Shown here one piece after another: positions 1-62,430 of a stretch of DNA of 64,000 bases. The DNA comes from Tubulanus polymorphus (Eukaryota; Nemertea; Palaeonemertea; Tubulaniformes; Tubulanidae): positions 22,914,153 through 22,978,152 of the forward strand of contig NC_134028.1 of assembly GCF_964204645.1 (NCBI RefSeq), in the 5' to 3' direction. The notes under the pieces are model-generated. The model worked only from the letters and a program-made list of their open reading frames with translations. It searched no databases and was not told where the DNA came from. The first letter of the stretch is position 1. Every line of letters starts with the position of its first letter. The translations under genes and the position numbers were made by a program.

Positions 1-163
1 TAGGTTACTGGTAAGTTTGACCCAAAATTGTGTTAATTTCCAGCTTTTTAGAGTAAAGTTAGAGCCTAGAACTCAACGCAGTGAGGAAGTACTGAACCAA
101 GGGAAGTTTGACCCAAAAAGGTTTAGTTCTGAATACTGGTACTTTCAGAGTTCATACACTCAC

Positions 164-3100
164 CGAGTATATCCCTCTTGCAGTTTTCCAGTTTATCTTG
201 AATTTGAGCTTTGACATCCAATTCCAACTCGAATTTCATCATCGCATCCGGAACTGTGGTTCCTCGATTGTTTTCTTCTTTCTGCAATAAAACATAAGAA
301 CAATCGTCAGGAGGCAAAACAATTGAGCGCTAGTAATGACTAGGCTAGGTTTATTACTTTTAGCTGGGCTAGGTTTATTACTTTCGGCTAGACTTGGCTT
401 ATTACTTTTGGCTAGACTGGGTTTATCACTTTCGACTAGACTGGGTTTATTCAACTCTAACAACCCAGAATTCAGTTCCAACATTTCTCACTCGATAATT
501 CTGATATTGGTTCAGTTCGAATGTTTTAACTCTCATATTCGAGTCAATCTTAGCGAGAACCGAGGAACTGAATCGAGGCTCCACAGCCCCCTGTTTCATG
601 ATCCGATAAAACCTAACTTACCGAATATTTCGCCTCCATTTTCGATTCGTACTCCTCGCCGAGGAAGAATCGCGTTTTGATTTTGTGACGTTTGAAGAAC
701 TGTGGCGCGTTGTCGCGTACGTATTGACGGGCCTCGTCCTGAGCTAGACGCGGCCTCGATCCGGCCGGTCGCGTCTCGTTAAACATCGTCACGCTCTGAC
801 ACACAGCATCGCACGCTTCCTGATTCAGCTTTTTCTGCGAAATTAAATTCAGAAATTTGAGGGCGAAATGTGATTTTGAAATAAAGAATAAAACCACATG
901 GTCCAAAGTTATAGGGTTGAGGCAAAAGTAAAATCCCTTTTTAAGCACTTTTGTTTGGCAAAAGTGACACTTTTCTTATCATCAGTGTTTTCAATAAGAG
1001 CCAGGTCCCAGGTCCGTCTGTCGTTTGTAAAAGACCCGCCTGTTTTTTCAAACCAGCTTTCATTTCCGGGACTATTATGGGACCCTCCTCATTTCCGGGA
1101 CTATTATGGGACCCTCCTGTTTTTCGAAGGGACCTGGCTTGTTAATTTCTTATTGAAAACACTGATCATCATCCAAATCCACAACAGAAATTGTCAATTT
1201 ATGATCAGTGGTCTATAAACATGGGAAAAATGGATTAGAAATGGAGGACAGCAATATGTTGATACAGGCAGTTATATTGTCATCACATATATAGTGTCCA
1301 AGAAAGTAATTTGGGATACCAAATGTTAATAGTACCGGTATTGGTAAGCTCTTTGTAAACACTCGTTCAAATTTTGTGAAAAACATTTTCTAAGGGCCAA
1401 CATAATTTTCAAACAATTTGGAGACTTGCTATGAACCCCGAACTATCGTATTTTAAAGATTATCCTCTCGGTCGTGAGAAACCCTTACGAGAAAATCCCG
1501 GTACGACGAAACCCACAACTCACCAGCGCGTAGAAACAGTGTTTGTTCGTTTTCAAATGTTTGACCATCTCGTCACCAGAAATGGCGTTCTTCTTCGTGA
1601 TGTGACACGCCGTGCAACAATACGAGATTCGAAAGTCGTCGAAACTTTCGCAATTCACGCATTCGTGGACCAAATTCAATCCTTAAATCAGATATATATT
1701 AATATTACGTTCAGAGTTTATTCAAGCTGATTGGCGGAACGAGTGACAAGAGAAACTACCACAGGGATTTGTAACCCATGAACCATGGACCGACGAAAGA
1801 TCACCAGGGCCCAGTAGCGCAATCCTGACTTACGTAAGTCCAAAAATGGTCTTAAATCCTATGACTGGTTATAAATTGTTAGATTGGCTATAGAACAGAG
1901 TTGGTCTTATATGTAAGCCATGACTGTGCAACCGGCCTCGGCACACGTTTTAATGGACGTAGGTTTTCTACAGGTCTTTTGGATACTCAGCGATTATTTT
2001 CAATAGTTTAAGCAAGAACTATTGAACTGGGCGCGTGAATCTGTTGTACAGTCAGCTTGGAGACCAGTCTCAAGATTAAATAACATTGTCGGACATAGAC
2101 GAGTCACCACTGCGCGACTGGGCCCCCGGGTCGTCCTGGTTCGTTGCAAGCTTGATAATCCAAGAAATTAACTAACCCGGTACAGGGTCCTTGATCAAGT
2201 TGATTTTATCGACTTCCACCTGAATTTCTGCGTAGATGAACTTTTTCGGTTCGGCTGAAAAAAAGAGCGGCAAAAACTTGCAAATTATTTACAGAACCTG
2301 AAAAATAAACTACGTACAAAAGCCGGCGTTCAATTTTACACAATCACAATCCAGCACCAATCATCGAAGAGACAATCAGCCTTGAATCTTAAAGTTGAGG
2401 TAAATAGAAACCTCTCATATTTGTAGTAAGCTCGCTTAAGGTTCATTCATGCGTGACCAGAAACTAAATTTTCGGGACATTCTTCTTCATCAAATTTCAA
2501 GGCGATGGTTTCACGGTTTTCTCTTTTTTTCTTATGTATACGACATACATACGCAAAATATACAAGAATCAGAAAATATATGTAAAACATACACATTCTT
2601 ACCTTCTAAATATCACTGAACACCTTTCCACCAAATTACAACAATTTATAGCAGGCTTTGAACTCTAATGCGCTAACAACAGCTCATAATCACCAATATT
2701 CTCAAAGTTAAACCCAAGTAACAAATAGGCTATCATCCAAAACGTCTTACGTATTCGGTATCTTTTTAAATTTACCATGCTCGTATTTCACCCTTTGGAA
2801 ATAACACCCTAACAACTTTCATACTGGCTAGAGTTAAGCTTTCTATTATAATTCCAAGCACTCACACCAATCAGTGTACAGCCTACTGTAGCGATTTTTT
2901 ATTGTGCAAAATGTTTCAAATGCCCTTTAGGTAGGTAACAACACTGTTGACACAGTTGACACGAATTCAAAATTTCCAATATTTTTTCCAAGTATTTCAA
3001 GGGCGATTTTGCAATTTTTCCAAACTGAAATGTAGCCTTAGTAAAAGTGAACACACCATCCATCATACGAAAAGGCACGTCAACATTTCAGGGTGTTGAC

Positions 3101-6100
3101 TGGTTGATGAAGTTGATTTTCAAGAAAAATTGCCAAAGAAAGTTGCCCCGCGGCGAACAATCGACACCCCGGAACTATGCTGGGTTAAAAGAGCCCCGAT
3201 TCAGCAGTTGAAGTTGGGAAGCTGTAGAACCAAGTATGATCGAGATACATATCAAGTTTAGTTCGTGTGTAATGAACCTCTTACCTCCATTTTCCACCAA
3301 TAACTTATTCTACAAATAGAAGCAAAAAACCGCGCACATTTTACTACAAGATGACTCGCGCTCCGTAACGCACCGGGTTCATACGTAGGTCTTAGGTTCA
3401 AAGTTCAGAACGTGTCCCCCCCAAGCTTGACGGTCATATTCAATGGTTGTTGAATTTACGCCCGATTGCGCACACCCCGAGTTCACCCAAATTTCATCTC
3501 TCATAATTCAAGCTTGGGGTTGAACATCAACCAAATAAACGGGGGTGATTTCAAGTGCTGTTGCGACGAACAACGAGACCAAAATCAAAAGGCATGAATT
3601 TTGTTATCCAAAACGAACACGTAGTAGCACGCGACCGTAAGTGGAACTCATGTGGAATAAGTGGATACAATGCGGAACAAGTGGAACTCAAGTCGACCAA
3701 AAATATTCACAGAGAATCATAAACGAAATTTTAGAATTACATCATCTAATTGTTAAGTTTGCACCAAATCTCAAATTGCTACAATTTTTCCATTCGCCGA
3801 CATAATCATCGCTCGTTGCTAAGACAGCAACCGATGAAGGTTTACGACTGAGAGCGCCCTCTGTGAGAGAGCATTGAAACTACATAACGCGTGTCTATTT
3901 ACCAGATAATGTCTTGGACTGTCGACATGGCGATACCACTGCGGATAGGAGATCTCCGCATCACACAACTGCAAAACAGTTATCAGAATAAATATTACAG
4001 GCTTTACTACTACGGTGTTTAGACGGCAGTCCATAAAGTACAGTCACTAAATTTTGCAGATTTTCAACACCATACATATGCATTGTTCCCATAGTTATTA
4101 TTTCCCTGGTTTCATTTTTTCCAAATGGAAATAGGCCTGCATAAAAATGCAAACTATCAGACGGACATTTAAGTGGTTTCTGGTTGATAAAGCTGGAGCC
4201 AGTTGCTCAAAAGTTGGTTAGATTTAACCAGCCGATCTGATAGTTGACATAGTGAAAATTGAAAGTTCACACTGCTACTATGGCATTCATCCGCCGATTA
4301 TCTTCAAACCAACTTTTGAGCACCTGATTTTTTCAGGAAAATTTGTAGCATGACGTTGCACACATGGGAAAACAGTTTTTCCTAATTTCTCAGTACTGTA
4401 GGAACAATGTGCACACCGAGAAATACGATGGAAAGTGCTACATCAATTGCTACTTACGTCACAGTGAGTATAAACTTGAGTGAATTTCTTCCCTGAAACA
4501 GAAACAATTCATACAGTAAAACAAGCTGTTACCCGGTCGATGAACCCAGGAACTGTGAAAAATGGTTCCTCAACCATGAGGACTCTTAAATAACATTCAT
4601 GTAAATACCTCGAGAGTTGATCTTGTACTCGTGCAATTTAAGCTGATGTTCCGGTGACTGCCAGTGAGCTTCCAAAACCTACACTCACAAAATTCAACGA
4701 AAGAACCTTACATCATTCCACCGGATGATGGCTGTTAGTCAACAGCCGAAACGTTGTGGTTTCGTAATAATAAATTTGATCATATAATTTCAAATTGGAA
4801 GTGTGGGATTTCTTCATTTAAGAACCTTATATTCGTCAAATACACGACAGTTAGGAATCCTGTTATCGAGAATTCCACCAGGTGTCATTAGTAGTAACAC
4901 TTCTTCTGCGCTTCAATTTCTTCCCAATCTCAGTCAAAATTGAATGAACTAAGAATTTTCTCTTAATCAGTTATCAACGAAAACTACAGACAGCAGTAGA
5001 ACGGTCAATAATCTTCGTTGAGAAAGATTCGTTGAAAACTTACCATCTCATCTTCGACAGGCATTTCATGCATACACAGTTTACAAGTCGCAGTCGACTT
5101 CTTCTCATTGACGTCCATGAGAAAAACTTTAAATTCTGATTCTTCCGGCTCCCTGTAAATATCAAAACTGACGTTAATCAAATATATTTCGTAATATAAT
5201 CTATGATGTTTTTTAAAACACGTTCGATGAATAAATGATCCATGAAGCAATCTACTTTTCATTGTTGATTTCTCCTCTGGATGTGCATTAGCTCAAGCCA
5301 TTCGCTCTGTCCTGGCCAAAGTAAATGAATGGCATATTTTTTTTGGTGCAATCGGGCTTAGAATAATATGGGACCCCTTCCTTGATTCAGACTCACTATT
5401 TCAGTCTTCCTAGACGAATCACTGATATCTGGTGTTACAGTTGCTTCATCAGGTACATTATTTCAATCAAAAATGTGAAGTCCTGAACACATGTGAAGTG
5501 TGGACAATCAGTCTTTGAAAGTGTGCTGATAGAATGTCTAATATATATAGTTCATTTTCAGTCAAAAATGTCTGTGTTGAAGTTATGAATGCATGTGAAG
5601 TGTGGTAAATCAGTTTTTGAAAGTGTGCTTGTAGTTCATTTTTTGGCACATTCTAACAAGTCTTTGTAACTAACTTACGGAAGATCTTCACCGACAATGT
5701 CTTCATCTTCAGGTTCTTCAAACTTCACCATTTCTTCTGGTTTGGCTATCTACAAAACAATGCGATACACAAACCAAATAGATATTTCTTTTCATCACAA
5801 GGATTTTGTTCAGCAAGCGCAAGAAAATTCTTCAGTGCAAAAACTTACCGGTTCTTTATTGGCTTCCGGTATTACACCAGATTCTGAAATACGAAAATTC
5901 ATATGAAAAGATATCTAAAAAGAATATCAATAACTTCAATCTAACTTATGGATATTCTTAGGCAAATGTTCGACTATATCGAGGTAACAATAGAATACCT
6001 AGTCAGCATTGTCAGTCAGTCAGTCAGTACCGGTAACTGGACTGTGGTTGTCAGTAACTCAGTAACTGGACTGTGCTTTAGGCAGTAACTGGACTGTAGG

Positions 6101-7472
6101 GTTTAGTCAGTAACTGGACTGCGGTTTAGTCACTAACTGGACTGCGATTAAGTCAGTAAGCAGACTGCAGTTTAGTCAGTACTAGACCGCAGGGTTAAGT
6201 TGGTAACTGGACTGCAGTTTAATGAGCAATTAAGTCAGTAACTGGATTGTAGCTTTATTAGCAGTAACCAGGCGATGCTTCAGCAAGTAATTGGATCAAC
6301 TCTTTTCAACCCAACTTACCATCGTAGTCACGAAGGAGTTTGAGCAAATCAGTTTTCGCGCCACTTGAATGAATTCCTCGACTGAGGCAGAGATCCCGTA
6401 GACCGGCTACGGTCATTGTACCGTAATTCACAGCGGTCGCAGCATTGCTCACTGCGGGTTTAGGTGGCTCGATCTCCTCTGGTGACATCGAGCTCAAGCT
6501 GAAAAATTATAATGAGTAAAGTCAAGCATAATGGTGGCTGATGATACAAACCGTCACCATACATAAATTCCCAACAATATTTCTCATCTATTACGAGAAT
6601 CATTTTGACATTACTGTCGTGGGTAAATACGACACTTTTAGCGTATTAGTTCCCAAAAACTAAATCTGCGTTATGGTTAGGTGATAAAATTGTTGTTTTT
6701 AACATCATTATCCCAAATTTAGTTAGGGGCCGAAACATTAAATATATTTCTCTTCAGTGAAATATCAATTTGGGTATATGGCACGGGAATTCCAAATGTC
6801 TCCATTTTTCACTAAAAAAACACCGCAATTTAGTCATAACTCTAGGCGTTTTTATCTAAGCAACTTGTATCAAATTGCTTAACTCCGTCCATTACTATCA
6901 CGTGGTATAAATTGAATCGCCCTAAATAAATTACCCTACTCTCTAGAACACGAAGCTGAATTTTCTGCGATTGAAAAGGCTGCCATTTTCTTTTTGGATC
7001 TAGACTATAGGCAGGCCTAGTTGAACGCTAATTATCGAGGTGTCATCGTGCAAATCAAATCCGAGCGTCTCGTACTTTGGTTAAGTAAATGGAAGATTTG
7101 ATCCGTGTTGATTCGAGTTGCTTAAATAAAAACGCCTTTGCCAATATTAATGAATAAAAAAAGCTTTGATGAGGAGAGAATCCCACAATGATAATAAAAA
7201 GTCCGAAAATGAAACTTCGAGATAGTAGTTTATTTCAACGTTTCGACTATATCCTAATAGTCATCTTCAGGAATAATGAAGCTTTGAATAGATTTGAATT
7301 TAATTGTCGACTATTTCTTGCATTTGTTACTCGGATTTCTTGCTTATGAATGAATTTCAATAACATTTCGCGGGTAACACACCCGAAATTTTGCATCACT
7401 AAGATTTGAAAACAAAATTAGTTCAGTTTTATGATGCACATACCTCGCTAAAGCGTCCGCAACGCCGAACAT
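164..7472 (-). CDS. SAP-domain, matrin/U1-type zinc-finger-like protein (N-terminal 360 aa; 3' end off window)
   Basis: I read eleven coding exons on the minus strand, all with GT/AG borders and matching phases: 7444-7472 (ATG), 6320-6498, 5849-5883, 5679-5749, 5044-5152, 3903-3968, 3285-3309, 2177-2254, 1524-1681, 622-834 and 164-281. The last ends in phase 1, so the gene continues left of the window. Residues about 37-69 form a SAP motif (GLRDLCLSRGIHSSGAKTDL), known in other proteins to bind A/T-rich DNA or chromatin. Residues about 88-112 are acidic. C128/C131 with H155/H161, and C220/C223 with H239/H245, give CxxC...Hx5H patterns like matrin/U1 zinc fingers, the second better spaced (15 residues) than the first. 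The region after about 250 is basic and Gln/Lys-rich and unfamiliar. I cannot name an orthologue. A nuclear nucleic-acid-binding role is inferred from the two domain types. Confidence 0.72.
335..455. repeat. Tandem repeat, about 30-bp unit, about 4 copies
   Basis: The phrase GGTTTATTACTTTTGGCTAG recurs about every 30 bases with small changes (at about 346, 376, 406 and 436). It lies in the intron between exons 164-281 and 622-834 of the minus-strand SAP gene. Confidence 0.75.
981..1166. mobile_element. Foldback (MITE-like) element with 19-bp perfect terminal inverted repeats
   Basis: ATCAGTGTTTTCAATAAGA at 981-999 is repeated as its exact reverse complement at 1148-1166. Inside, GAGCCAGGTCCC and GGGACCTGGCT form a second inverted pair, and a 31-bp unit around CATTTCCGGGACTATTATGG occurs twice in tandem. 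There is no coding capacity. It sits in an intron of the SAP gene. Confidence 0.7.
4202..4324. mobile_element. Foldback (MITE-like) element
   Basis: GTTGCTCAAAAGTTGGTT near 4202 faces AACCAACTTTTGAGCACC ending at 4324, giving imperfect terminal inverted repeats of about 18 bp around a non-coding centre. Intronic in the SAP gene. Confidence 0.65.
5466..5640. repeat. Direct duplication of a ~70-bp segment
   Basis: A segment running from TCAAAAATGT through GCATGTGAAGTGTGG to TTTGAAAGTGTGCT occurs twice, at about 5466-5532 and 5567-5635. It lies in the intron between exons 5044-5152 and 5679-5749 of the SAP gene. It looks like a local tandem duplication that has diverged. Confidence 0.6.
6008..6275. 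repeat. Minisatellite built on CAGTAACTGGACTG
   Basis: The core CAGTAACTGGACTG, followed by a short variable link ending in TTTAGT, recurs about nine times every 22-32 bases, preceded by a short (CAGT)n run. Intronic in the SAP gene, just downstream of the SAP exon in transcription order. Confidence 0.8.
7175..7275. repeat. Partial copy of the AGAGAATCCCACAAT repeat family
   Basis: AGAGAATCCCACAATGATAA at 7175 matches one terminus of the element at 21234-21372, and TAGTCATCTTCAGGAATAAT near 7258 matches the interior of that element. I see no opposing terminus, so this copy is truncated. It lies in the first intron of the SAP gene. Confidence 0.55.
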
Positions 7473-8333
7473 TTTGAATTCTTCACTTTTCACGGATATG
7501 GTCAGATATGGTGCCGGTGGCCGATTCGGTTTTCGTAGTTCTCAATTTATATTAAACCGCAACTCACTTATCAGCAGGTTCGAGTCACACATTATGCGAT
7601 GGGCTTTTGAAATAAATTCTCTAGAAGAATCAAATTTTCCTTCTTCAATCATTTTATCTTCGTAACTTGATAATAATTTCACATACCATCTTAAAACCAA
7701 AAAGCCTCTCAATCAATATCAATCAAAGATGCTTTCGATTTATATATATACTGATTTTAAGACGGTCTATCCTTGTAAAATTTGTGTATAGTTTACAAAG
7801 GAATACATAATTGAAAAAGGAAAAATAGATCTTTGAGAATTTCAATCATATAGTTCCATCGCTCAACAGGACTCGAACCTGATAGGGCACTTAAGTTGAA
7901 TCTAAATTGAAAACCATGATGGCCGAAATTTGTATCCTGCACATCCGATATAGACAATCCTGTATTGTACTGTCTTGCGCCACTTAGTAATCCTCTTAAA
8001 TCATGTTTCTATGTGATGAATTTTCAAAAATCGCCTGTTAGATAGAAACCCTACGACTATTAAGCCGTTATCATTACCGACAACACCAGCCTCAAGACAA
8101 CCAAGTTGTTAACAACATGATTTACAAGCCAACAAGGTAAAATGAAATATGGAATGGAAGATAGAATCTGAATCAGAATTGTTTATATTGACATGTTTTG
8201 TTGTTATCAGTAAGTAAATTAGTAATCTTTAGTTGTTGACATATTCATTTGATTTTGAATTGTAGATGATTTTGCAGGCAGCAGCAATAGTAATATCTTG
8301 CACTCGTTAAATCAGCATTTATCAGTTTATCAA

Positions 8334-8340
8334 TATATAA
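8334..8340 (+). promoter_or_regulatory. TATA-like box upstream of EME1
   Basis: TATATAA lies 68 bases upstream of the first EME1 ATG and just 5' of a short upstream frame. Position and sequence fit a TATA element, but this is AT-rich DNA, so chance occurrence is quite possible. Confidence 0.3.
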
Positions 8341-8356
8341 GCAGAGAATAATAGAG

Positions 8357-8380
8357 ATGATGTCAACGACAGAGGAGTAG
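8357..8380 (+). other. Short upstream open reading frame before EME1
   Basis: ATG ATG then five more codons and TAG (seven residues, MMSTTEE), ending 21 bases before the run of EME1 ATG codons. If it lies in the 5' leader it could damp EME1 translation. Inference only; the transcription start is not known. Confidence 0.35.
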
Positions 8381-8401
8381 TAATAGAGTCCAGTGATAAC
8401 G

Positions 8402-8545
8402 ATGATGATGATGATGGAGCCGACAGTCGATGATATTCAGTATGTTCAGTGCATCTGTCCACATATCAACTCCGACGACATCAGAAATGATTTGTGCTAC
8501 ACGAGAAACGTTCAACTTACAATCAATCGATGTTTGGATGGAAAT
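8402..8545 (+). other. EME1: CUE-like domain exon of EME1 (exon 1)
   Basis: The exon encodes 48 residues starting with five consecutive Met codons, so the exact start is uncertain. The stretch CICPHINSDDIRNDL followed by TRNVQLTINRCLDG resembles CUE ubiquitin-binding domains of the AMFR/AUP1 type (hydrophobic-Pro motif, middle helix, then a T/L-I-rich third helix ending in L-x-G). The donor GTGAGT falls in phase 0 after AAT, and the acceptor before 9249 opens the EME1 frame with TAT TTG AGA. Exon 2 has an in-frame stop just upstream of its acceptor and no early ATG, so EME1 needs an upstream start exon and this is the one that fits. Transcript evidence is needed to prove the join. Confidence 0.65.
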
Positions 8546-11500
8546 GTGAGTCTGTCACAAGTTCGCGGGGAAGCGATTTGTCACGATTAGTTGTCTTTAA
8601 GTCCAAATAATATGTATTTCTGTTTCAAATAACGAAGTGGATATTTTGCCAATATGGCTTTAGTCGAAATTATTTTGCTTAAACATGATTAAGAAAAATT
8701 TATTTCTCCGATTTGGATAACAAAAAGGATCTCAGTAAGATTTTAGGATTATTAGTTAGGTTAAGGTCTTAAAGTGGTTAAAGTGCTTAGGCCTAAATGA
8801 ATTCTGGCGGCGGGAACCAATGTTATAGTAATAGAAGTGTGGGGACAGGTGGTTGGTTTGGAATCCTGATCCCAAAAAGATACTGTGCTCTCTAGAATAG
8901 TCAGTAACCTGTCTGTGGTTTGATAGTTTCACGTTTGGATATTTTCACAAACCACTCAGAATATTGTTCGAGTATAGTTGGTATAAGCCCACCCAATTAT
9001 AAAAGCTTACCACCAATGATTAGTGAACTAGCTATCTTTAAAATAAAATAGATGGAACCGTGGTATTTGGTAGTTATTCATGAACTACACTCAAACAATA
9101 TACCAACTACACTCAAACAATATTTTTAGTGGTTGGTGAAAATATCCAATCGTGAAACTAAACCACAGACAGGTTACTGTTAAGGTATTTCTTTGCTTGA
9201 AACTTACGCGGAAATTTGAGACTGATGCATGTTCTTTGGTGATTTCAGTATTTGAGAAAGTGCCGTCCGATTATAAAGAGTCCCAGTAAAAAAGAAGCCG
9301 ACGCTTTGTTGAAAGCTATTAACGAAAGTCAGCTGGAGGAATTAGACTGCGAGAAAGTGGACGACGAGCAGTTGAGGTCGTTTATCAGCGATTGCAGCCC
9401 GAGTCCGAATAAAACGAAGGGCAAGATCATCAACAACGGAAGCTTCTCGAGCCCTACCCTTACGCCGGGAAAAATAGTGAAATATCCGCGTCCCCCGAAT
9501 CTCAAGACGTCGACGATAACCGCGCGTGATTTCAACAATACGAAAACGAAAATCTCGGCCGTCGATCATTTGGATAATTTAGTTGGTAGTTTCTTGGATG
9601 ATTTACACAACGAACGCGGTACGATCGACAAAACGATTTCGATCAAAAAAGAACCCTCGTCGTCGACGACCGCGCAACAATCGAAGCAAATATTGTCTTT
9701 GAATTCGGGGATTAAGTACAACCATGGCGACGTTATCGAACTATCGGATAGTTCAGATGACGAGGGTTCGTCGGTGCGGCCGAACGACGACGGCGAACAA
9801 TCGTCAGCCAACAACGCGGCGTTTTCGACAAAACGTAAATCGAGTTTTAGTTTACTGCGGAGTCCAGTGAAGAAATCTAAAGCCGCGACGATAAACGCTA
9901 GTCCTCAGCTCGGCGTTAGATCGCTTCTCGGTTCGAGTCCACGATTGATGGCGAGGGGCGGCTTTACGAGTCATCATCACAACATACGTCCCAATATCGT
10001 TCGAATCGGACCCAGACTGAATAAAGCGTGGAATCACGCGCCGAATCCGACGCGATTCGCTCAACCTCGCGTGGCGACGAGTCTACTGAATTCCACGTCG
10101 GCAGCTTCGTCGCGGCTCGCGAATAAAAGTAACGGTAAACAACGCGTCATCGCGACCGACCAAAACGGACAAAATCGAACCGATGATACGACGAGTACTG
10201 GGAATCATTTAGAAACACGCCACGGTTCGGATGACCCCACCGATGAAAAACATAGTGATAACGAATCTGTCGATTGCGGGGGGAACAAAAATGAAAAAAC
10301 TAGTCAAATTATTGAAACACGGGATGAGGAGAACATCGTCAATCAAACCGCGACGAGATTAAACCCACCGAGCGACGACCGGCTCAAACCTACTTCGGAT
10401 AACAGTGATAACGATCAAAACAGTATTCCTCCTAATCAGAGATCGCACGTGAATACGAACGGCGAGAAATCCATGACAGCACAGCCGTATAACACGGCAA
10501 TTACTAATGATCACCCGCCGTCTGAAGATAGAATTGTTCCGTCAGTGTCGGGCGGGACGAAGGCTTTTGATAGCTTAAATACGGGACAGCGGTTAACGCA
10601 CAATAACCCTTCTTCCGGTCACAATCAAAGCGCTCAATATAACAGTTTAAATCCAGTATTGAATCAAGAGGGCAATAAAAACAGTTTTGTCAACAACTGG
10701 AATAGTCAGCAAAATTGGAACAATCAAAATCAGAGTGGTGGCAATTGGAAACGGAATGAGTGTTACAGTCAGAATTCATGGCAAAATCAGAATCAGAATT
10801 ATGCGAACGAGTATCCCGATACTAATTATCAGGATGATACGGAGTATCAGGGTAACGAATTTGGTAACGCGGAGGAACATCCGAAAACGTACGATACCTG
10901 GGTACACAAATCCAATCCTTGGAATACGGAGGATGGGTACGACGATGGCGGATATGAAAACTTTGAGGACGGGGGAAACGCGTGGGAGGATGATCTTTTA
11001 GACGGTGCCAGCAGTCAGCCGACGACCGAAGAAGATGCGACGGACGAATGGAGCGATTATAACAGTGCAATAACGACATCGGCGAGTCAGATAACAACAA
11101 CTACTATAGGTTCTTCTAGTCAGAATAGTACGGCTTCCTCCGGCGCGGTGAAGAGTAGGAGTAAGAAAACTGCCGAACAATTAGCTTTAGAAAAACAAGA
11201 GAAACTACACAAACAGGTTTGGATTCATTTCATTGATTCACTGAGAATGTACAATCGTTCAGCCACCCATATTAACCTGTGTTTAGTACTCAGTGTCACC
11301 TTTTACATGCTTGTCATACAGCCTTCTATTGGTTGGTTTACTGTTCAGGCACAGGCCTAACTGTATTCCATGTTAGCCTTGATGTTTATTTGAGATTACT
11401 GTATAGGCCTATAATCCTCTTTATGAAAATGCAGGTATATGGATGGAAAATGTAGAGGGCTCTTACAGATCAGGGGATATTAGGGAATTCCAGATTTTTT

Positions 11501-14500
11501 TTTGCCTTGTAGGGAAAATCAGGGAATTCTGACTCTTGAAAATCAGGGAATTTGAATTTTTGGTGTCTCGCTGTTCCTGCTGGTGACGAGTGGCATGAGG
11601 AACCTCGTGATAAGAAACAGCAGCCCTCATCGAGGATATGTCATCATTTTATCAGGGAATTTTTATTTAATGGCCAGGGATTCTGGAAATATCTGGGAAT
11701 TTTAGATTCCCTGATCTTTAGAACTCTGAACAGATGACGAATAAGTATTTGAAGGTTATGAGATGTGACGGTCTTTTTTTTTTTAATAGGAAGAAAGAGA
11801 AAGGAAAAAAGCGGCGAAAGAACAAGAGAAGCTGGACAAACAAAAACAACGCGAATTGAAACTACAAGAAAAAGAGCAAAAAAAACTGGAAAAAGCGAAG
11901 GAAAAGGCGGCAAAAAAAGCAGTTCAAGAAGCGAATAAGAATTCGAAACCGGGAGAATGCACAAAAGTAAGTGAATGTATCGGCAGACGTGGGGTGTAAC
12001 TGTAGTTTCTCCACTTCTCTCTCTCTCCACTATGTGACACAGTGTTATTAATGATTAGGTTCATGGAAAAGTGGCCACTTACTTGGAAATCAGGGAAAAG
12101 TCAGGGAAGCTTCTTTTCTTTAAAAAAGTGAGGGAATAGTGAGGAATTTTGTGAAGAAGCTGAAAATCGGGAAAAAGTGGCGGAAATTTGTTGATCACGC
12201 GTATAATCAAACAGTTTCCGTCTACGTTTTATGTATTTAACTGTGTTAATAAATTGATTGGATTCTTAGCCGATCGGGTCAGGGAAAACACCGTGCATGT
12301 CCGGGAATAGTCAGAAAAAAAGCTAGTCAACTAAAAGTAGCCACCCTGATTAGGGACGCCTTAACGCCTTATTTTCTATCGATAGTTAATGGTAGTCATG
12401 ATCGACAGCGGATTGATAAACGGTTCTAGTTTAGCGCCGGCTCTACTGGGCACGTTACAGGGCGCGTCGGTTAACTATAGAGTGCAAGATTTACCCGTAC
12501 CGAATAGTATTACGTGGAGACGTCAGGTGCCGTCAACGGAGGTCGATCAGTACGGCCGAGTCAACAATCGAACCGCCGAGAACGACGAAAACGAAGCGAT
12601 CGTTTTCATTCCGATCGATGAATTCGTCGATTTAGTTTATAACGCAGTGAATCCTACCGGTAGTCCGTCGTTGTCGACGTTCGTGAAACAAGTTCGACAA
12701 AACGCCGGCAACAAGAACCTGACGATCATCGTGAAGGACATCGAAAGATATTTCAGGTGCGTCTAAAATTCTGAAATTAGTTTGTCAAGTGTATTATAGC
12801 GAAACCTCGTAAACAACGAACTTCAGGATCCAGTTCAGTTCCACAGTCATGAGTTAAGAGTAAACTCTGAGTTAAAATGAGTTCATTTTCAATGAGCTAA
12901 CTCCAGTCAAATCTTAACTCACAACCGTGGAACTGGGTCCAGGGGACCAGAAAATTGGGGGGGGGGCTGTGAGTATATCCATTAAGAGATATCCATGAGT
13001 ATATTCATTAAATCCAGTATCAAATGATTGAACTTATCCTATTTGGGATGAATATATTGGCTTGTGATTACACATAAATTGTTATATCCGAGGTTGTTAT
13101 AACGAGGTTTCACTGTATGTCGGATTTTGATGATTTGCAACATTCCCGGAGCACCCCCATGTATGCTACTTTAAGCATTATGTTCATAAGAATAAGTGGC
13201 CAAATTTCAAAATTCTATTTGTGATGGAATTCTAGGTTTTTGATAACTGATAAATCATTATATCTGAAGTCGTCTTAACGAGTTTCCACTGTACGCAAGA
13301 TTTTGATGATTGCATGTACGCATTTTAAAGCATTATGTACATTAGGATAAGTGGCCAAATTTCGACACCCCTCTCTTGGTTGTGTATTTTGAATGATTGT
13401 TGTTTTATGAGATCAAATGTTAATATTCGGTTCGGGGTTGTTTTGTTTAGATCAGTGAAGACCGTGCAACAAAGAGAATACCGACAAGCCGTACTGAACG
13501 TCGAAAATCCAGAATCTCAACAAAACAACAAGAAAACTATGTTTAAAGTGGCAAACGTCGATATTACTACTCAGATTACGCGCGTTCAACTCGAAGAGGT
13601 AATTACAACTTTTCTGGATAGAATATCATACAATATTACAGGCTGGCCACTTACATGTACTTGGAATTCAGGAAAAAGTCAGGGAAACCTCTAATCTTTG
13701 AAATAAGTCGGGGGATTTTGTAAAAAAGGAAAAAAAAGTCGGAAATTTGTTGGGATTGTTAGATTGCGCGTATAATCAAACAGTGTTTGTCTATGACTTT
13801 CATATTTGACTGTGTTAATTGATTGGGTTCTTAGCAGATCAAGTCGGGGAAACAACGTGCATGTCAGTGAATAGTCAGTGGAAAAGCAGGTCAAATAAAA
13901 GTTGCCACCCAGTATGACATTGGTAGCCACTGACCGTGAAAACCTGGAAAACTCAGAATATGAAAAATAAGGGAAACTTCAGAGAATTTGAACAAATTTT
14001 GCGTATAACATACTAGAAAACTTGGGGAATTTCTCAAATGGGTCGATAACACAAAATGTATTGGGCAAACCGATCGCCAGAACCGGATTCACTTGGTCAT
14101 GACTTGATTTCACCGAGTCGCCAAACGAACAACTGACTGAGTCGACTCAGTCTCCCATATTGTAGATATGTTGTATGTATTTATAGGCTCTGGTCGATGT
14201 ACAGGTGAATACAGGTTGTAACGTGAAGTTCGTAGAAACCGAAGACGCCGTCGCTAAAACCGTTTTACAATACACGAAAGCAGTGGCTGAGATTACGTTC
14301 AAGTGAGCATTTAATGATTGTTAGATTCAGCTGTGATATTGCGTGTTGACGCTTTCATCGTCGTAATGCTGTAAAATTAGTTTTTAGATTTATTTTTGAA
14401 TCGTAAACATCGCTTATATCATCACTTTTGTCTCATCTATCCTACAGTATTATTGAGTTTGTATATCCAAGGGTACATGATCCCGTTTCGTAGATTTTTG

Positions 14501-16184
14501 AGTTAGATTTGACTATACAGTTTGAAATCAATTACCGGAAGATTGTATACAACATTCTAACTAACATTACACTCATGGACCCATTTCCACAGTTGTGAGT
14601 TAGAGTTAACTCTGAGTTAAAGTTAGTTCATTTTCGATGTTTTAACTCAGAGTCAAATTTTAACACACGACTGTGGAACTGGACCATGCAGTCTATATAT
14701 ATAACTACAGTCAAAGCCCTTTGAAATGCCATCGTCGGAACCAGAAAATTGTGGCATTATAGAGAGTGGCCACTGACTTGGAAAGCGTGGAAAACTCAGG
14801 GAATCAGAAAAATCTAGAAGTCAGTGAAAACCAAGGCAATTTGACAAATTTCACCAAAAACCTGGGAAATTTGGATAAAACTATTGACCACTTGTTTCTT
14901 TATCAATTCGTGATTCAATGAAAGATGAATGAATTGTAACCTAGAAATTTCTCTGAATCACTCAGGGAATTTTGTCTAATTGCATGAAAAAATGAAGGGA
15001 AAACTCGGGGGATCTGTAAATTGGAAAGTTGCCACCCTGTTATATCGAATTTGCCGAATGGTATTTTTTCGTTGTATTTGAGTGAGATTTGACGTATTTT
15101 ATCTCTGAAGTATGTTGGCATTGAGCGAGTGTTATACACCGCGCTTTCACTGTATCGATGATATATATTCGTAGTTGACTGTATTTTTATTCGCTCTTTC
15201 TTTCACCGTTTCACCGTGTCGTTTTCAGGCAGTCGAGATTGAACAATGCATTTTCATTTATGCCCGATTTATCGGGCAGCGCTCGCGTCGATAAAGACGG
15301 CAAAGGGTTAATAAAAGTTTGGAAGCAACACATTCAACAATTTCGTAACGTAAGCGCAGATATGGCCGCTGCAATTGTTGCGCAATATCCATCTCCGCAA
15401 ATACTCATTCAGGTTAATATCGGCAGTTTTTACTGATATTCATTATTTCTGTTATGTTTGTATTGTTGATATCGGTTATTGTCTATTTTCCAGGCCTATA
15501 AACGCTGCAATCCCAGAGAAGGCGAATTACTCTTACAAGATATATCAGTAAGTATGGTGGGCTACTGGGACGGATCTATGGGGGGGAAACAGAAAAGGGA
15601 ACTTTTTTCAGCAAAAACGCAACTAAAAATCAAATATCCTCCGTGATAAGAGCTTTCTGGGTTTATAAAACTATATTGAAACCATCCTCACTTGCCAGGG
15701 TTTGATTGCTTCGTGCTGAAGTTCATGCCAACACATACCGTGGCCGTAGTTCCTTCATTGGATTCGAGATATCTTGGGCGGACGGGTTGCCTCTCAGCGG
15801 CCACCAGTCTATATATCTAGCTATCTCAATTGGCTGCTTGGAGTACTCAGTCTGATTACTCCGAGGCTACTTAGACTAGTGGTCGCTGAGTGGCGACCTG
15901 TTTGCTCAAAATCTCTTGGGCGGTGTAATAGACCAATGCAGGAACTGAGGCCGGGGGTTTGTGTTGGCGTGAGCTTCGATGGGAGGCAATCAAACCCTGG
16001 CAGGCCAGGATATATTTGAACGTACATGCATGGATTCTAATGTAAACTGATCATGTATTTTGATATTGTGTAGGTGCGAAGGGGCGCCGGAGTGTTAGAA
16101 ACTAATCGAAGAATTGGTAAAGAATTGTCTCGTCGAATCTATCAACACATGATGCTTGATAATCCAGAATTTCTACTCGAATGA
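8402..16184 (+). CDS. EME1: Crossover junction endonuclease subunit EME1 with N-terminal CUE-like module
   Basis: EME1 is the catalytically inactive partner of MUS81; the complex cuts branched DNA at stalled forks and recombination joints. Exons, all phase-matched: 8402-8545, 9249-11216, 11790-11966, 12386-12756, 13451-13598, 14187-14302, 15229-15412, 15494-15547, 16074-16184 (TGA); 1090 aa against about 570 in human. Residues about 9-48 form a CUE-like fold segment. Residues 210-220 (VIELSDSSDDE) look like a SUMO-interaction motif, about 242-262 is a basic nuclear signal, about 530-650 is Asn/Gln/Trp/Tyr-rich, and 705-763 is a Lys/Glu coiled region. From 764 comes the ERCC4-like domain (VMIDSGLI, TWRR, then KAVAEITFK). 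The last three exons give the tandem helix-hairpin-helix end (AYPSPQ-like AQYPSPQILIQAY, VRRGAGV, RRIGKELSRRIYQ). The MUS81 ERK catalytic motif is absent, as expected for EME1. EME2 is the main alternative name. Confidence 0.9.
8902..9179. mobile_element. Long-TIR foldback element in EME1 intron 1
   Basis: CAGTAACCTGTCTGTGGTTT from 8902 is mirrored by AAACCACAGACAGGTTACTG ending at 9179. The complementarity extends, with few mismatches, about 80 bases inward through the segments TTTCACGTTTGGATATTTTC and GAAAATATCCAATCGTGAAA. A short direct repeat (ACTACACTCAAACAATAT, twice) lies near the inner end of the right arm. No coding capacity. It nearly fills the second half of the intron. Confidence 0.8.
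12071..12348. mobile_element. MITE-like element of the GTGGCCACTTAC family, copy 1 (EME1 intron 3)
   Basis: Starts GTGGCCACTTACTTGGAAAT and ends AAGTAGCCACCCTG, with inner phrases CAGGGAAAAGTCAGGGAA and ATAGTCAG. The same layout recurs in introns 5 and 6 (13641-13912, 14764-15040). A looser relative rich in CAGGGAATT lies in intron 2 (about 11455-11720). Confidence 0.7.
12826..12940. mobile_element. Foldback element with GGGTCCAGTTCCACAG-type ends, copy 1 (EME1 intron 4)
   Basis: GGATCCAGTTC...CCACAGTCATGAGTTAAGA faces TCTTAACTCACAACCGTGG...AACTGGGTCC. The centre is another inverted pair (GAGTTAAAATGAGTTCATTT). Related copies are at 14577-14685, 55387-55517 and a minimal one at 17354-17397. 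Confidence 0.75.
13641..13912. mobile_element. MITE-like element of the GTGGCCACTTAC family, copy 2 (EME1 intron 5)
   Basis: Begins GGCTGGCCACTTACATG and ends AAAAGTTGCCACCC, with the same interior order as copy 1, including AAAAAGTCAGGGAAAC and a segment containing GCGTATAATCAAACAGT shared with copy 1. Confidence 0.7.
14577..14685. mobile_element. Foldback element with GGGTCCAGTTCCACAG-type ends, copy 2 (EME1 intron 6)
   Basis: GGACCCATTTCCACAGTTGT at the left faces CGACTGTGGAACTGGACC at the right; the interior GAGTTAACTCTGAGTTAAAG is itself inverted against AACTCAGAGTCAAATTT. Same family as 12826-12940. Confidence 0.75.
14764..15040. mobile_element. MITE-like element of the GTGGCCACTTAC family, copy 3 (EME1 intron 6)
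   Basis: Begins AGTGGCCACTGACTTGGAAA and ends AAAGTTGCCACCCTGT, with interior phrases AACTCAGGGAATCAG and CACTCAGGGAATTTTG. The most diverged of the three copies. Confidence 0.65.
15695..16000. mobile_element. Foldback element in EME1 intron 8
   Basis: CCAGGGTTTGATTGC from 15695 faces GCAATCAAACCCTGG ending at 16000. Further inverted pairs lie inside (TTCATGCCAACACA against TGTGTTGGCGTGAG; GCCGTAGTTCC against GGAACTGAGGC; CAGCGGCCACCAGTCTA against TAGTGGTCGCTGAG). The element fills most of the 526-bp intron. Confidence 0.7.
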
Positions 16185-18305: not shown

Positions 18306-19186
18306 CTAAGCGTAAAGTTTCATTTGTTGTTGCATCTCTTCGAATGATGAAACTCCGTATCCCCCTCCGTTCTCTTCGCAACCCGTCGATTTCATCAGTT
18401 CGAATATTTCTTTCAACTGTCGTCGCTGAGTTTCGCGTTCCTCTTCAATCTGCTCCGACGTCAAATTCTCCATGATTTTCTTCGTCGCGACTTTCTGATG
18501 GATCTTTTTAACCTCACCCTGTAAATGTTCGACGTATTCAAATGGATCGATGTCTGGTTTCACTGAGTCGCCTAGAAAAAAAAAATAACAATAATAACAA
18601 TGATACTTTTAATTGACGAATTAAATAACGATAGGAAATCGCATAAGCAAACACAAAATATTGCAGAATAGGACGCTGGACAGAGCAACCACTGTTTAGG
18701 TGTCCTTAATGGTACCTAACCTAACCATATAACACTGTTCTTTAAAAGCACTAATGGAAAGGTGACCTACACTGGAGCCACTATCACTTATCGCGCATTT
18801 TCAACGATCAAATAGTTTTCAGAGGATCAGAAAGCTATATTTCAGTGCCAGTTATTAGTTTGGATTTGGAAATATTTACGGTAAAATTGCCATTTTAATC
18901 ATTAAACTTTTTTTAAATAGCCTATATTTCTAAACTTACTCGTTGAATTCTCTAGTTTGCTTTCTGATTCTATGATCGAACCGGATTCATCATTCTTCTC
19001 CGCATCATCAGCTACATCTTTGTTCTTCCTTTTCTTGGTTTTCTTCTCCGCCGTCGCGTCTTTCGTGGTGATTTCTTGTTGAGTTCGATTCTCATGTTTT
19101 TGCAATGTATATTTGAACCAGATGAATGCTATTACACCGGCCAGTATAGTAGAACCAATAGCGATATAAATCTGTAAAAGTTTCAT
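18306..19186 (-). CDS. MXRA7: MXRA7-like single-pass membrane protein
   Basis: Two exons, 18940-19186 (ATG at the top end, phase 1 donor GTAAGT) and 18306-18571 (acceptor TTTTTCTAG, stop TAG), give 170 residues. Residues about 3-23 are a hydrophobic membrane segment (IYIAIGSTILAGVIAFIWF), followed by a charged Lys/Glu-rich linker. The C-terminal part, EQIEEERETQRRQLKEIFEL then MK and, at the very end, EEMQQQMKLYA, matches the conserved C-terminal block of vertebrate matrix-remodelling-associated protein 7 (EELEEEQ..QKEQLAAIF.LMK ... LRLY). Human MXRA7 is of similar size. Its biochemical role is not well defined in any animal. Both the topology and the C-terminal match agree, so I am fairly sure of the family, less so of strict orthology. 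Confidence 0.75.
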
Positions 19187-46200: not shown

Positions 46201-48433
46201 TTGTCACGAAGTTATAATAGCCTTATTGTCTACGTCCAAGTGTTTAGACTACCATCTCTAATAGTCTTATTCATACGCACCTGAAGGTATAGTATATATT
46301 CGTATGGCCACAGATTCCCCCGATGCCAACGGCGAATCGCTGCTGCGTGCATCACTATCAAATAATCCATTCTCGTAATGCGAACAAAGTCTCCTTCCCA
46401 TCATCGGCTACCTATTAATGCGTCGAAATCAAATTGATCCCCGAAATCTGAGACAAGATCTGTTGACCGTTTGTGCAATACAACCCGATAGTTTAGTAAT
46501 TCGACGATGGAAACTGGGGCATATTTGTTTATAGATAATGAAGACAACATGATGACTCGAACGCACCGATTGGGATCAATATCCGCCCAAATAGGTTTAC
46601 CTCTCCTCGCCGCTTGTGGCGCGGCTTTTACCGAGGAAAACCGAAAACCGGATAAGATGCCTGCAGAACGTGTTATATCTTGTGCGAAATCTGTCGAATT
46701 GTCACTAGGACAAATCTAATTTCTGACAGTCGCGAATTGAGACAGTCGTCGAATTCCAGCTACTTTGATGTATAAGATGTTAGGTAAATATCGCAAAGCT
46801 TTCAGATGCGATTTGAACTTGATTTGCCGAGGAGAACGGCTTTCGAAATTCTTTTGATAAATCAAACGGTCGTTTTTCTGAGTAACAATGACGCATACAA
46901 GCGGTGGATGCCGCAGGATCATCAACGAAATATTTATTAGAACAGTGCGCGGTTGAAGTTAGTGATATTTTATGAGCAACCTGAGCAACAGATCTTTTTC
47001 AAAAGATTTTCTCTCTGAAGCTTGGTATATGCGGATGTATATGGTTCGACGCGTCTCTACGATGCTGCACGTGTCAGGATTGAACACGAACGTGCGATGG
47101 AACCTGCCTTTTTTCCCGAGTAGAGCATTGACGATTCCGATGTCGTTGTTCTGTTAGCAGTAATAAACGTCGGAATAATGCGTCTGACTTTCAGCTGTAT
47201 GCTACTCAGGGAACTGAGAATATTCAAGCTTGAAATGGACCATTAATAACCATTAGAATAAATGCCAAAAGTCGAATGCCATGCATTTTCTACGCGAGTT
47301 GTGCTCGACATTAGATATAGCTTATTTTAAGCTTGGCATAGCTCTGAGCATATGAGTATATCATAAATCTGGACACGGGCTGACGTCCCTCGCCGATAGG
47401 ACGCAGTTCCCTGAAGGGCATAAATCGTATTAAGGGTACACGACCACTGTGGCCCTGGAAAATGAAGCCGTAGTACGGAAACCTTGCGCTTTTATGAAAC
47501 TGCGTCTCGAATCCGCTGTTTTTGATGTCTTAATCAACGTCCAATATGAGGGATATTTTTCACAGCGATCTCTCTACATATTGTCTAGACTAGATGATCG
47601 CTTTTAGTGATTGGTTAGTATCTGTTGATGAACGAGCCGGGTTATCTCCGAGTCGAAAGTTACTTAGGGAAATAAATAAGCCCGAAAAGCAAGCATTTTT
47701 TACTTTGATCTGGGAAACCGCGAATAAGTCAGGAAGCAACTAGGATTTCACTTAATCTCTAATAACCGAAATGGAGTCGTCAAAATGAGAAGGTGTTTTT
47801 TGCATGTCCACGAAAAAAGAAAACTGAATGAATATTTGGCTTCGGTAAGGGAAGAAGATAATACCGCGTGCCCTTTATTCGTCGTTCATGGTGGATTTAA
47901 AAAGTAAGGATAATAACTTGACCTGTGTGGCGCGTATATCCATCTTGTTTAAGAGGGATATTCGGCCGGAGCGGTGGCACTACAGGATATTACCACCAGA
48001 TATTTGCCACAATCCAATCAACGCAGTCAAATCTTTATAACAGCTTAATGAAAGAGGGGAACGGCTGAGGAGAAACGCTAATGATGTGTTATCAAGTTTA
48101 ACGATAGCTACATTCAGGAATATTGATACGTCGGCTACAAGTCGGAGGCCTGCTCTGCTCGACTAGCGCATTATTTTATACGCCATCATTAATGGCCCGC
48201 AGCCGCTGACAAATTGTATTATTGCCTTGACGAAAATTGAAAAGGGTGTCCTGCGCGTCAAGATTCGCTCGCGAGTTTAAAATTATCCAAATCGTTAATT
48301 TTCGAATGTCGATTCGATCGATAAATCGATGATGCCGGCCGTTGACGAGAGGTGCTACGGCTCGATCGATACAGAACCTTGAATTATCGCTCAATTCACC
48401 TCCGACCCTAGATTTCATTGTGCAGTAATGTCG

Positions 48434-48588
<155 letters not shown>

Positions 48589-49703
48589 GTTAATAGCGAC
48601 AGGTAGAAAAAAATCGACGAAAATGGATCGAGGAAAATTGGAAGGCGGGTCTGAAGGATAAAGGAGGGTATTCTTCGGGTAAAGCAGCCACGCCGAAGGC
48701 CACAAGTATTAGAAAATCTGAATGAAATACATCCAAAAAAGATGCAATTTCCCAGAGGATGAGTGTCAGATTTGCAGGATTCAACCATCTCCTCTGGGAA
48801 GGTATGGGGCCAGATTCCCGAAATAACCCGTAGATCTTAGTGAAAATGGTTCACTTGGTGCAGCTCAAAGTGTGTTTAATAATACCTCGTCATTTCCTTG
48901 ACCGGCAGGTTCTCCGAGTTATAATGCACCTTTTTATTCGCTAATCCATGGACTCTTAAAGAGTGGACTCTTTTAGGCTAATCTATAAGCCGCCATTTTG
49001 TGTGTTTTCACGCATCCTGCTTGGCCTCAATTCAATTTTTACCACGAGCGCCGAATGGAAATTGTCAAGTTTGACGAGATAAATAGCTACAGTGCTGATC
49101 AGGTAAAAACGGCTAGCTGATGAGGCGTGATTTTATTAGATAAATCACAGGCTACTGCCGGTTATTGTAACGGGCAGAATGGAGCTGATGTAATTACAAA
49201 AACAGTGAATGTTAGACACTGTAACGGTCGGGTGGTAATTGGTATGTAATACACAGTAACTCGACCACCAGTTACCACCAACAGCGACCCCCGCAGAAAT
49301 ACCATCACCACACGTAATGCGATTTGAAATCGCCCATTTTTTATACCGTAAATGGCCGCGGTCGTTGATAAACAGTAAGTAATGATATGAGAGCAGTGGT
49401 CACTATTATTAGTTTCCCTCGCATTGTCAGACGTTTCGCGCATTCTTTTGTGGAATTGTCGTGAAAAGAGGACTGAATGAAGACGATGAGAGATGATGCC
49501 CGACTAGAAATCTGTGAGATTGCTAACGTAAATTCCACCTGACGATAGCTGTTAGTGACCAGTTGAAACGTATAGTGGCTAATAAAATCAGATTTAGTAG
49601 ATTTCGGACATTTCCGTTATATGTTATGGGATTTTATTAATGTATTGTTAACCATTGGTGAAACATTCTGAGTCCATTTTTGGTTGATATCAATAAAGTG
49701 AAT

Positions 49704-61544: not shown

Positions 61545-61643
61545 TTTACAGCATCATGCGTCGATTGTATTTCAACTGAGCTGATAGACGAAAAAAGAAG
61601 AACAAAATCATTTCGATCGGTGTAACTGGACAGCGTGGCGAGA

Positions 61644-62056
61644 ATGGATCGGATACCGTGCAACGCAACTTTAGAAAATGCCACAGTACCGGGCTACCGT
61701 AAAAACGGCACCGACTCCCCGTGCGTGGCAATAAACCCGTTCGAAATATCGGAGGGAATTCAAGTAGTTTATTTCGTAGCTTTCGTTGTAATGATTATCG
61801 TGGCTGCCGGGGGTAATATAATCGTTATATGGATTGTCGTGGCGCATAAACGGATGAGGACAGTTACGAACTATTTCTTGGTAAATTTGGCTTTAGCAGA
61901 CGCGCTGATATCCGCGACTACGGTTATTTTCAATCTGATATATATGGTACGGTTACACTGGCCGTTCGGGGAGTTTTATTGTAAGTTCATGTATTCGATG
62001 ACGGTCAGCACGGTATCGGCTAGTGTACTCACCTTCATGGCTATCGCTATAGACAG
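61644..62056 (+). CDS. Tachykinin-receptor-like GPCR, first coding exon (partial gene)
   Basis: Rhodopsin-family receptors of this type sit in the plasma membrane and signal neuropeptide binding through G proteins. The exon encodes 137 codons plus two bases. Residues 1-38 are extracellular with N-glycosylation sites N7, N12 and N21. TM1 is about 40-63 (GGN, N58), then AHKRMRTVTNYFLVNLALAD gives loop 1 and TM2 (D86). C123 is the usual TM3 disulphide cysteine, and the exon ends in ...FMAIAIDR, splitting the DRY arginine codon at donor AG|GTAAAT. The VIWIVVAHKRMRTVTNYFLV block is very close to the tachykinin receptor consensus. I chose the first ATG; no further exon is visible to 64000. Confidence 0.88.
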
Positions 62057-62430
62057 GTAAATACTTATTCATTTTCTTTCTCTGTTTAATTATACACCCT
62101 GTAAGTGTTTTATATCGCAGTGAAGTGGATAACAAGAGTTGTAACTGCGATACACCACACATGGCGTAATAGAATTACAGAAAAATACGTCAATAAGGTC
62201 GACAGGTTTCGAGTTCTACGTTGTCTATTTTGATCGTAGTTTTCTTTGAGAACTAGATGAATATCATTTAGTTTAGTTCAGTAGAGTTTTACGTCCCAAC
62301 TGCAAGTAACGGTTAAATCCTAGAGTTTCTTAAGAGACGACCAGAACTTTTTTATAGGTTGTTATGGCTTCCAACCTGACTAAGTTAGCAGAGCTTTGTC
62401 CACGTATGTGTCTTGAAAGCCAACGCCAGA

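Follow-up and report, generated by a model that had tools for sequence, protein, structure and literature searches.

EME1 is the partner of the DNA-cutting enzyme MUS81, and neither human EME1 nor that of other vertebrates is known to carry a CUE domain. The delivery of MUS81-EME1 to damaged DNA is usually explained via the scaffold SLX4: human SLX4 requires its UBZ region in order to be recruited to crosslinks, and MUS81-EME1 is bound to SLX4; the ubiquitin reader in this system is a UBZ4-type domain that brings to the crosslink a scaffold for structure-selective nucleases, including MUS81-EME1 (PMC4075355). A CUE domain has likewise been described in DNA repair, in ASCC2, where it takes the ALKBH3-ASCC complex to ubiquitin chains; ASCC2, however, is a subunit of alkylation repair and not of MUS81-EME1, and its ubiquitin-binding motifs are conserved (PMC8800115). 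The case described here differs from both, in that the candidate reader is carried by the nuclease subunit itself.

Two elements have been described as essential to CUE domains, namely MFP (or hFP, haP) and LL (or iL, ih) (PMC6688830). Among the CUE domains of the ER-degradation proteins AMFR (gp78), AUP1 and Cue1, that of AMFR binds ubiquitin (PMC8699718), and the reported values are ~13 µM for gp78 and, with mono-ubiquitin, 173 µM for Cue1 (PMC8800115). The first CUE domain of the chromatin protein SMARCAD1, by contrast, prefers the coiled coil of KAP1 (~158 nM) far over mono-ubiquitin (~952 µM) (PMC6688830).

The window that we analysed, a stretch of 64,000 nucleotides from the nemertean Tubulanus polymorphus, contains a nine-exon gene that ends at position 16184 and encodes a protein of 1,090 residues, with GT..AG ends at all eight introns. 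Pfam identifies an EME1-MUS81_C domain (PF21292, 2e-32) and an ERCC4 domain (PF02732, 2.9e-9) in the model protein, whose C-terminal 329 residues match solved chains of EME1 at 1.3e-55, compared with 7e-21 for EME2 and 8.1e-6 for MUS81. Since the protein combines an ERCC4-type domain with the EME1-MUS81 C-terminal domain and scores better against EME1 than against either EME2 or MUS81, we conclude that the gene is EME1. Both of these domains are common to the solved EME1 chains; the N-terminal CUE-like module is extra here. When a protein search was made for a copy elsewhere in the genome, a single candidate was scored, which was the locus itself, and a scan of viral contigs for relatives found none. 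The features of the gene are as follows.

8402 to 8545, plus strand: exon 1, 48 codons, encoding the CUE-like module and starting with five ATGs (open reading frame, splice signals, profiles)
8435 to 8542, plus strand: core of the CUE-like module, residues 12-47, whose alignment with AMFR, AUP1 and Cue1 is gap-free
8453 to 8461, plus strand: ICP, at the position of the CUE MFP motif, residues 18-20 (alignment)
8531 to 8536, plus strand: CL, residues 44-45, where CUE domains have their di-leucine motif (alignment)
8546 to 9248, plus strand: predicted intron 1, phase 0 (gene model, splice scoring)
9249 to 11216, plus strand: exon 2, a long region of low similarity with no confident Pfam domain
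9294 to 9338, plus strand: UIM-like motif EADALLKAINESQLE, residues 64-78 (seven of eight consensus positions)
9732 to 9764, plus strand: SIM-like motif VIELSDSSDDE, residues 210-220 (pattern match)
11790 to 11966, plus strand: exon 3, a charged segment rich in Lys and Glu (gene model)
12386 to 12756, plus strand: exon 4, in which the ERCC4-type nuclease-like domain begins (gene model, Pfam)
13451 to 13598, plus strand: exon 5 (gene model)
14187 to 14302, plus strand: exon 6 (gene model)
15229 to 15412, plus strand: exon 7 (gene model, Pfam)
15494 to 15547, plus strand: exon 8 (gene model)
16074 to 16184, plus strand: exon 9, the last coding exon, with part of EME1-MUS81_C (gene model, Pfam)

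The explanation that we favour, and to which we assign an even chance of being correct as a whole, is that the coding sequence of EME1 starts with the exon at 8402-8545, that this exon encodes a divergent CUE-like module, and that the module, together with UIM-like and SIM-like motifs in exon 2, would form an N-terminus that reads ubiquitin and perhaps SUMO. The sequence gives strong support to the gene, the frame, the splice signals and the CUE similarity, whereas the use of the splice in RNA, the fold, the binding of ubiquitin and the role are proposed on that basis.

In comparison with the CUE domains of AMFR, AUP1 and Cue1, exon 1 aligns over 36 residues without a gap, with 10 to 14 of the 36 identical (14 in AUP1), and all of them have in common a proline and a pattern resembling DL..T..V..TI...L.G. 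The module would be expected to form a divergent three-helix fold of the AMFR/AUP1/Cue1 type; single-sequence AlphaFold on exon 1 alone gave a pLDDT of 47, with no confident fold. The host proteins differ as well, since the known domains of this group reside in ER-degradation proteins, whereas the module described here resides on a nuclease subunit.

The sequence-only reading that preceded this analysis had taken exon 1 to be a ubiquitin-binding module, but its two ubiquitin-contact motifs are degenerate. Where the related domains have MFP, VFP, VLP or LAP followed by IL, LL or YL, exon 1 has ICP and CL. ICP keeps the hydrophobic residue and the proline, but cysteine replaces the aromatic residue, so that it departs from MFP even when hFP and haP are allowed, and for this reason we call the module CUE-like; VLP of AUP1 and LAP of Cue1 depart from it as well. 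In CL, the second leucine is retained and the first is a cysteine, with iL and ih allowed for. Because ICP stands in place of MFP and CL in place of LL, the hallmark of ubiquitin binding is only partly retained.

These degenerate contact motifs could signify that the exon is EME1's and adopts the CUE fold, but that its ligand is a partner protein, such as SLX4, MUS81 or a chromatin factor, instead of ubiquitin. The docking of SMARCAD1 onto KAP1, described above, provides a precedent. On the other hand, the nearest relatives, AMFR and Cue1, do bind ubiquitin, and a UIM-like motif adjoins the module. For these reasons we regard a partner other than ubiquitin as possible but somewhat unlikely. 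We rank weak ubiquitin binding above other ligands because Cue1, which has LAP for MFP and YL for LL in the alignment, still binds, and we have weighed the counterexample of SMARCAD1 in doing so. Ubiquitin binding by the exon 1 module is therefore no more than plausible.

The UIM-like and SIM-like motifs are new additions, beyond the earlier observation of CUE similarity. The UIM consensus is given as Ac-Ac-Ac-X-phi-X-X-Ala-phi-X-X-Ser-X-X-Ac (PMC8273247), and the motif in exon 2, which was spotted by eye among several possible kinds of motif, agrees with it at seven of eight positions, with the alanine and the serine both retained. The same level of agreement was reached by 52 of 20,000 shuffles of the whole protein and only once when residues 49-108 were shuffled 20,000 times; it was reached by none of 24,402 open reading frames from shuffled windows and by no other among the 1,255 real ones in the window. 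Searches of Pfam and PDB gave no match to the motif. AlphaFold, applied to the initial 60-residue segment encoded by exon 2, predicts at low confidence (mean pLDDT 57.9) a helix at residues 14-25 of that segment, which spans positions 1-10 of the 15-residue UIM-like motif. The SIM-like motif, judged by a general pattern, was matched by 24 of 20,000 shuffles. Taken together, the CUE-, UIM- and SIM-like elements, which precede a long linker, point to a possible multivalent reader.

Degeneration of the MFP and LL positions is also what one would expect if the exon belonged to EME1 but had lost its binding role, leaving a start exon under weak constraint. The codon usage of exon 1 may point in the same direction, as it does not look coding-like: measured against a codon table trained on EME1 exons 2-9 only, it scores -8.7 bits, or -3.2 bits when the run of methionines is removed (its two remaining frames have -27.4 and -21.4). 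Nevertheless, the gap-free match extends over 36 residues and the pattern of helices 2 and 3 noted above is retained, and we therefore consider a decayed module improbable.

The need for a start exon follows from exon 2 itself, because its frame is closed by a TGA at 9240-9242 and its first in-frame methionine, at base 9948, comes only at residue 282 of the model. Exon 1 spans 144 nucleotides of the plus strand and encodes 48 residues, MMMMMEPTVDDIQYVQCICPHINSDDIRNDLCYTRNVQLTINRCLDGN; its donor reads GGAAAT/gtgagt, the acceptor of exon 2 at 9249 reads tgatttcag/TATTTG, and the two join in phase 0. The GC content of exon 1, at 40%, exceeds that of the upstream sequence (33%) and that of intron 1 (35%). 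The sequence-only reading had argued that exon 2 of an EME1 gene needs a start exon and that 8545 joins to 9249; the upstream stop and late methionine bear out the first point, the open reading frame, donor, acceptor and phase of the predicted splice are all as it described, and the domain matches and PDB-chain scores agree in naming the gene. We infer that the 8545/9249 splice is very probably used in the RNA.

It is important, however, to consider whether the open reading frame at 8402-8545 lies outside EME1, as a stray or separate CUE-like exon, so that EME1 begins at a tiny or a two-part start. An enumeration restricted to one-part starts identified four distinct phase-0 candidates with a donor score >3 in 6600-9200, namely the CUE exon and three rivals.

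7350-7373: rival start candidate, 8 residues, donor score 5.4
7508-7516: rival start candidate, 3 residues, donor score 4.2
8797-8838: rival start candidate, 14 residues, donor score 3.9

On a combined codon-plus-donor score, with donor weights taken from assumed frequencies, the 8-residue and 3-residue candidates (5.7 and 5.1) exceed the CUE exon even when the latter is read from its last ATG (3.9), because its codon term is negative, and all three rivals outrank its five-methionine version, read from the first ATG (-0.6). Against this, the rivals encode only a handful of residues each, and the CUE exon has the best donor of the four, at 8.15. Nor was another host gene seen for exon 1. Twelve other plus-strand open reading frames of at least 60 residues overlap 1-8400, and the 11 scanned with Pfam (all but 7625-7810) have no match over the cut-off; their best matches below it are DUF7815 (0.026) and NRIP1_repr_2 (0.061), and none of the 11 matches an acyltransferase like that of AUP1. 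The nearest recognised upstream open reading frame, which encodes a SAP domain, is on the opposite strand. A start elsewhere is, in our view, quite improbable.

The CUE similarity of exon 1 was assessed with two kinds of profile. Pfam CUE (PF02845) matches the 48 residues at 19.3 bits (E 8.8e-4) over profile positions 13-42 of 42, which falls below the curated cut-off of 21.1 bits; three versions of the exon match at 8.2e-4, 0.0098 and 0.0021, and the E-value weakens to 0.0098 when 55 residues are added and to 0.11 (12.6 bits) in the full protein. Neither the reversed exon 1 sequence nor six neighbouring open reading frames gave a Pfam CUE match, and an NCBIfam scan, which uses prokaryote models, returned no match. 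When the whole genome was searched with Pfam CUE at an E-value limit of 0.001, three other places came up, exon 1 not among them. Three PDB chains match exon 1 at E up to 10: the CUE domains of AUP1 (0.39) and Cue1 (0.52), and a transferrin-receptor chain (0.55) that we take to be unrelated.

We then built a profile of our own from four CUE domains of the AMFR/AUP1/Cue1 group, gathered in a search for which this genome's AMFR, rather than exon 1, served as the query. By this profile the exon 1 open reading frame ranks first of the 1,255 in the window, with 25.9 bits (E 4.7e-7), as compared with 8.6 bits for the runner-up. The highest scores obtained by shuffling were 11.4 bits, among 24,402 open reading frames of 20 triplet-shuffled windows, and 10.1 bits, among 20,000 residue shuffles; extrapolated by length to a genome of 268 Mb, this corresponds to 0.002 expected chance matches. 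When CUEDC1 and VPS9 are added to the profile, the exon 1 open reading frame drops to 13.8 bits (E 0.0026), with 10.3 for the best shuffled frame, and residue shuffles reach up to 12.7 where exon 1 itself has 15.1. Since the mixed profile lowers the score, it is the AMFR/AUP1/Cue1 group that exon 1 most resembles.

The profile was used in six versions: the full set, four with one member left out, and one that lacked both AMFRs. Exon 1 outscores CUEDC1, TOLLIP and VPS9 in all six, which favours the AMFR/AUP1/Cue1 group because those three belong to other subgroups. The left-out member scored 50.3 against 26.0 for exon 1 in the case of this genome's AMFR, 34.1 against 25.4 for human AMFR, 31.4 against 22.0 for AUP1, and 15.1 against 20.0 for Cue1. 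In the version without either AMFR, the scores were 41.0 for this genome's AMFR, 24.8 for exon 1 and 24.7 for human AMFR. Exon 1 thus has the appearance of a divergent group member, since three of the four left-out members outscore it and Cue1 does not.

That the similarity is a chance match, as the sub-threshold Pfam score, its weakening to 0.11 in the full protein and the absence of the exon from the genome-wide list might suggest, is very improbable indeed and is rejected on the strength of the shuffle and leave-out controls, together with the location of the exon in the right place, frame and phase. Judged by these profiles, the resemblance of exon 1 to CUE domains is real and beyond the level of chance. 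What had been proposed from the sequence alone therefore survives in part: an AMFR/AUP1-type CUE resemblance is upheld by the Pfam E-value and by our own profile with its controls, CUE is the only Pfam family returned for residues 1-48, and the need for a start exon, the phase-0 join and the identity of EME1 all stand, whereas the Pfam score lies under the curated cut-off and the ubiquitin-contact motifs are degenerate.

If the favoured explanation holds, the N-terminus of this EME1 would begin with the three-helix CUE-like module, followed after 16 residues by the start of the UIM-like helix and, at about residue 210, by the SIM-like motif, and a long linker would connect this reader with the nuclease-like core that binds MUS81. 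By binding weakly and multivalently to ubiquitylated proteins, or to proteins carrying both ubiquitin and SUMO, at stalled forks or crosslinks, the N-terminus could then concentrate MUS81-EME1 there, a job that is done in humans by the UBZ domains of SLX4. It is even conceivable, though we think it unlikely, that in this invertebrate lineage EME1's own composite reader picks out ubiquitin chains, or mixed chains of ubiquitin and SUMO, at damaged forks, recruits the nuclease directly and replaces or backs up the SLX4 UBZ; a search for SLX4 in this genome returned two weak matches (0.44 and 0.48), neither of them convincing. Were a ubiquitin reader on EME1 to be confirmed, it would let the nuclease reach ubiquitylated sites of damage directly, and it would mean that the link between ubiquitin signalling and MUS81-EME1 can shift between subunits in evolution. 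The module, at 48 residues, is small.

Our literature search, whose scope stopped short of subscription journals and of database annotation of other invertebrates, found no paper that joins EME1 with a CUE domain, and none came up among the papers listed in related searches; public gene models may nevertheless show this arrangement already. In the main text of PMC11377751, the term CUE is absent and the sole mention of EME1 is of MUS81-EME1 as a known ERCC4 heterodimer.

Several further features of the region may be recorded. The run of five ATG codons with which the predicted coding sequence opens (8402-8416, plus strand) is part of a GAT repeat, the length of which could differ between individuals while leaving the frame intact. 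Out of frame with the CUE open reading frame, 8341-8430 of the plus strand encodes AENNRDDVNDRGVVIESSDNDDDDDGADSR, which is SIM-like and acidic, lacks an ATG, and may be a chance product of the same repeat. A seven-codon upstream open reading frame, MMSTTEE (8357-8380, plus strand), shares the CUE frame within the predicted 5' UTR and ends at a TAG. A bacterial-type promoter scan of 8200-8420, of a kind irrelevant to an animal gene, found nothing, and one possible promoter element was noted.

8334 to 8341, plus strand: TATA-like TATATAAG, some 65 bases ahead of the first ATG (weak, pattern only)

Among the neighbours in the window, the SAP-domain open reading frame (6309-6506, minus strand; Pfam 1.3e-7) is arranged head to head with EME1. 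An MXRA7 helical domain is encoded at 18309-18608 (minus strand; Pfam 1.4e-15), and the start of a rhodopsin-family GPCR at 61626-62057 (plus strand; Pfam 3.2e-24). A long TA-type microsatellite occupies 48176-48836 on the minus strand, and its open frames read YIYIYI.
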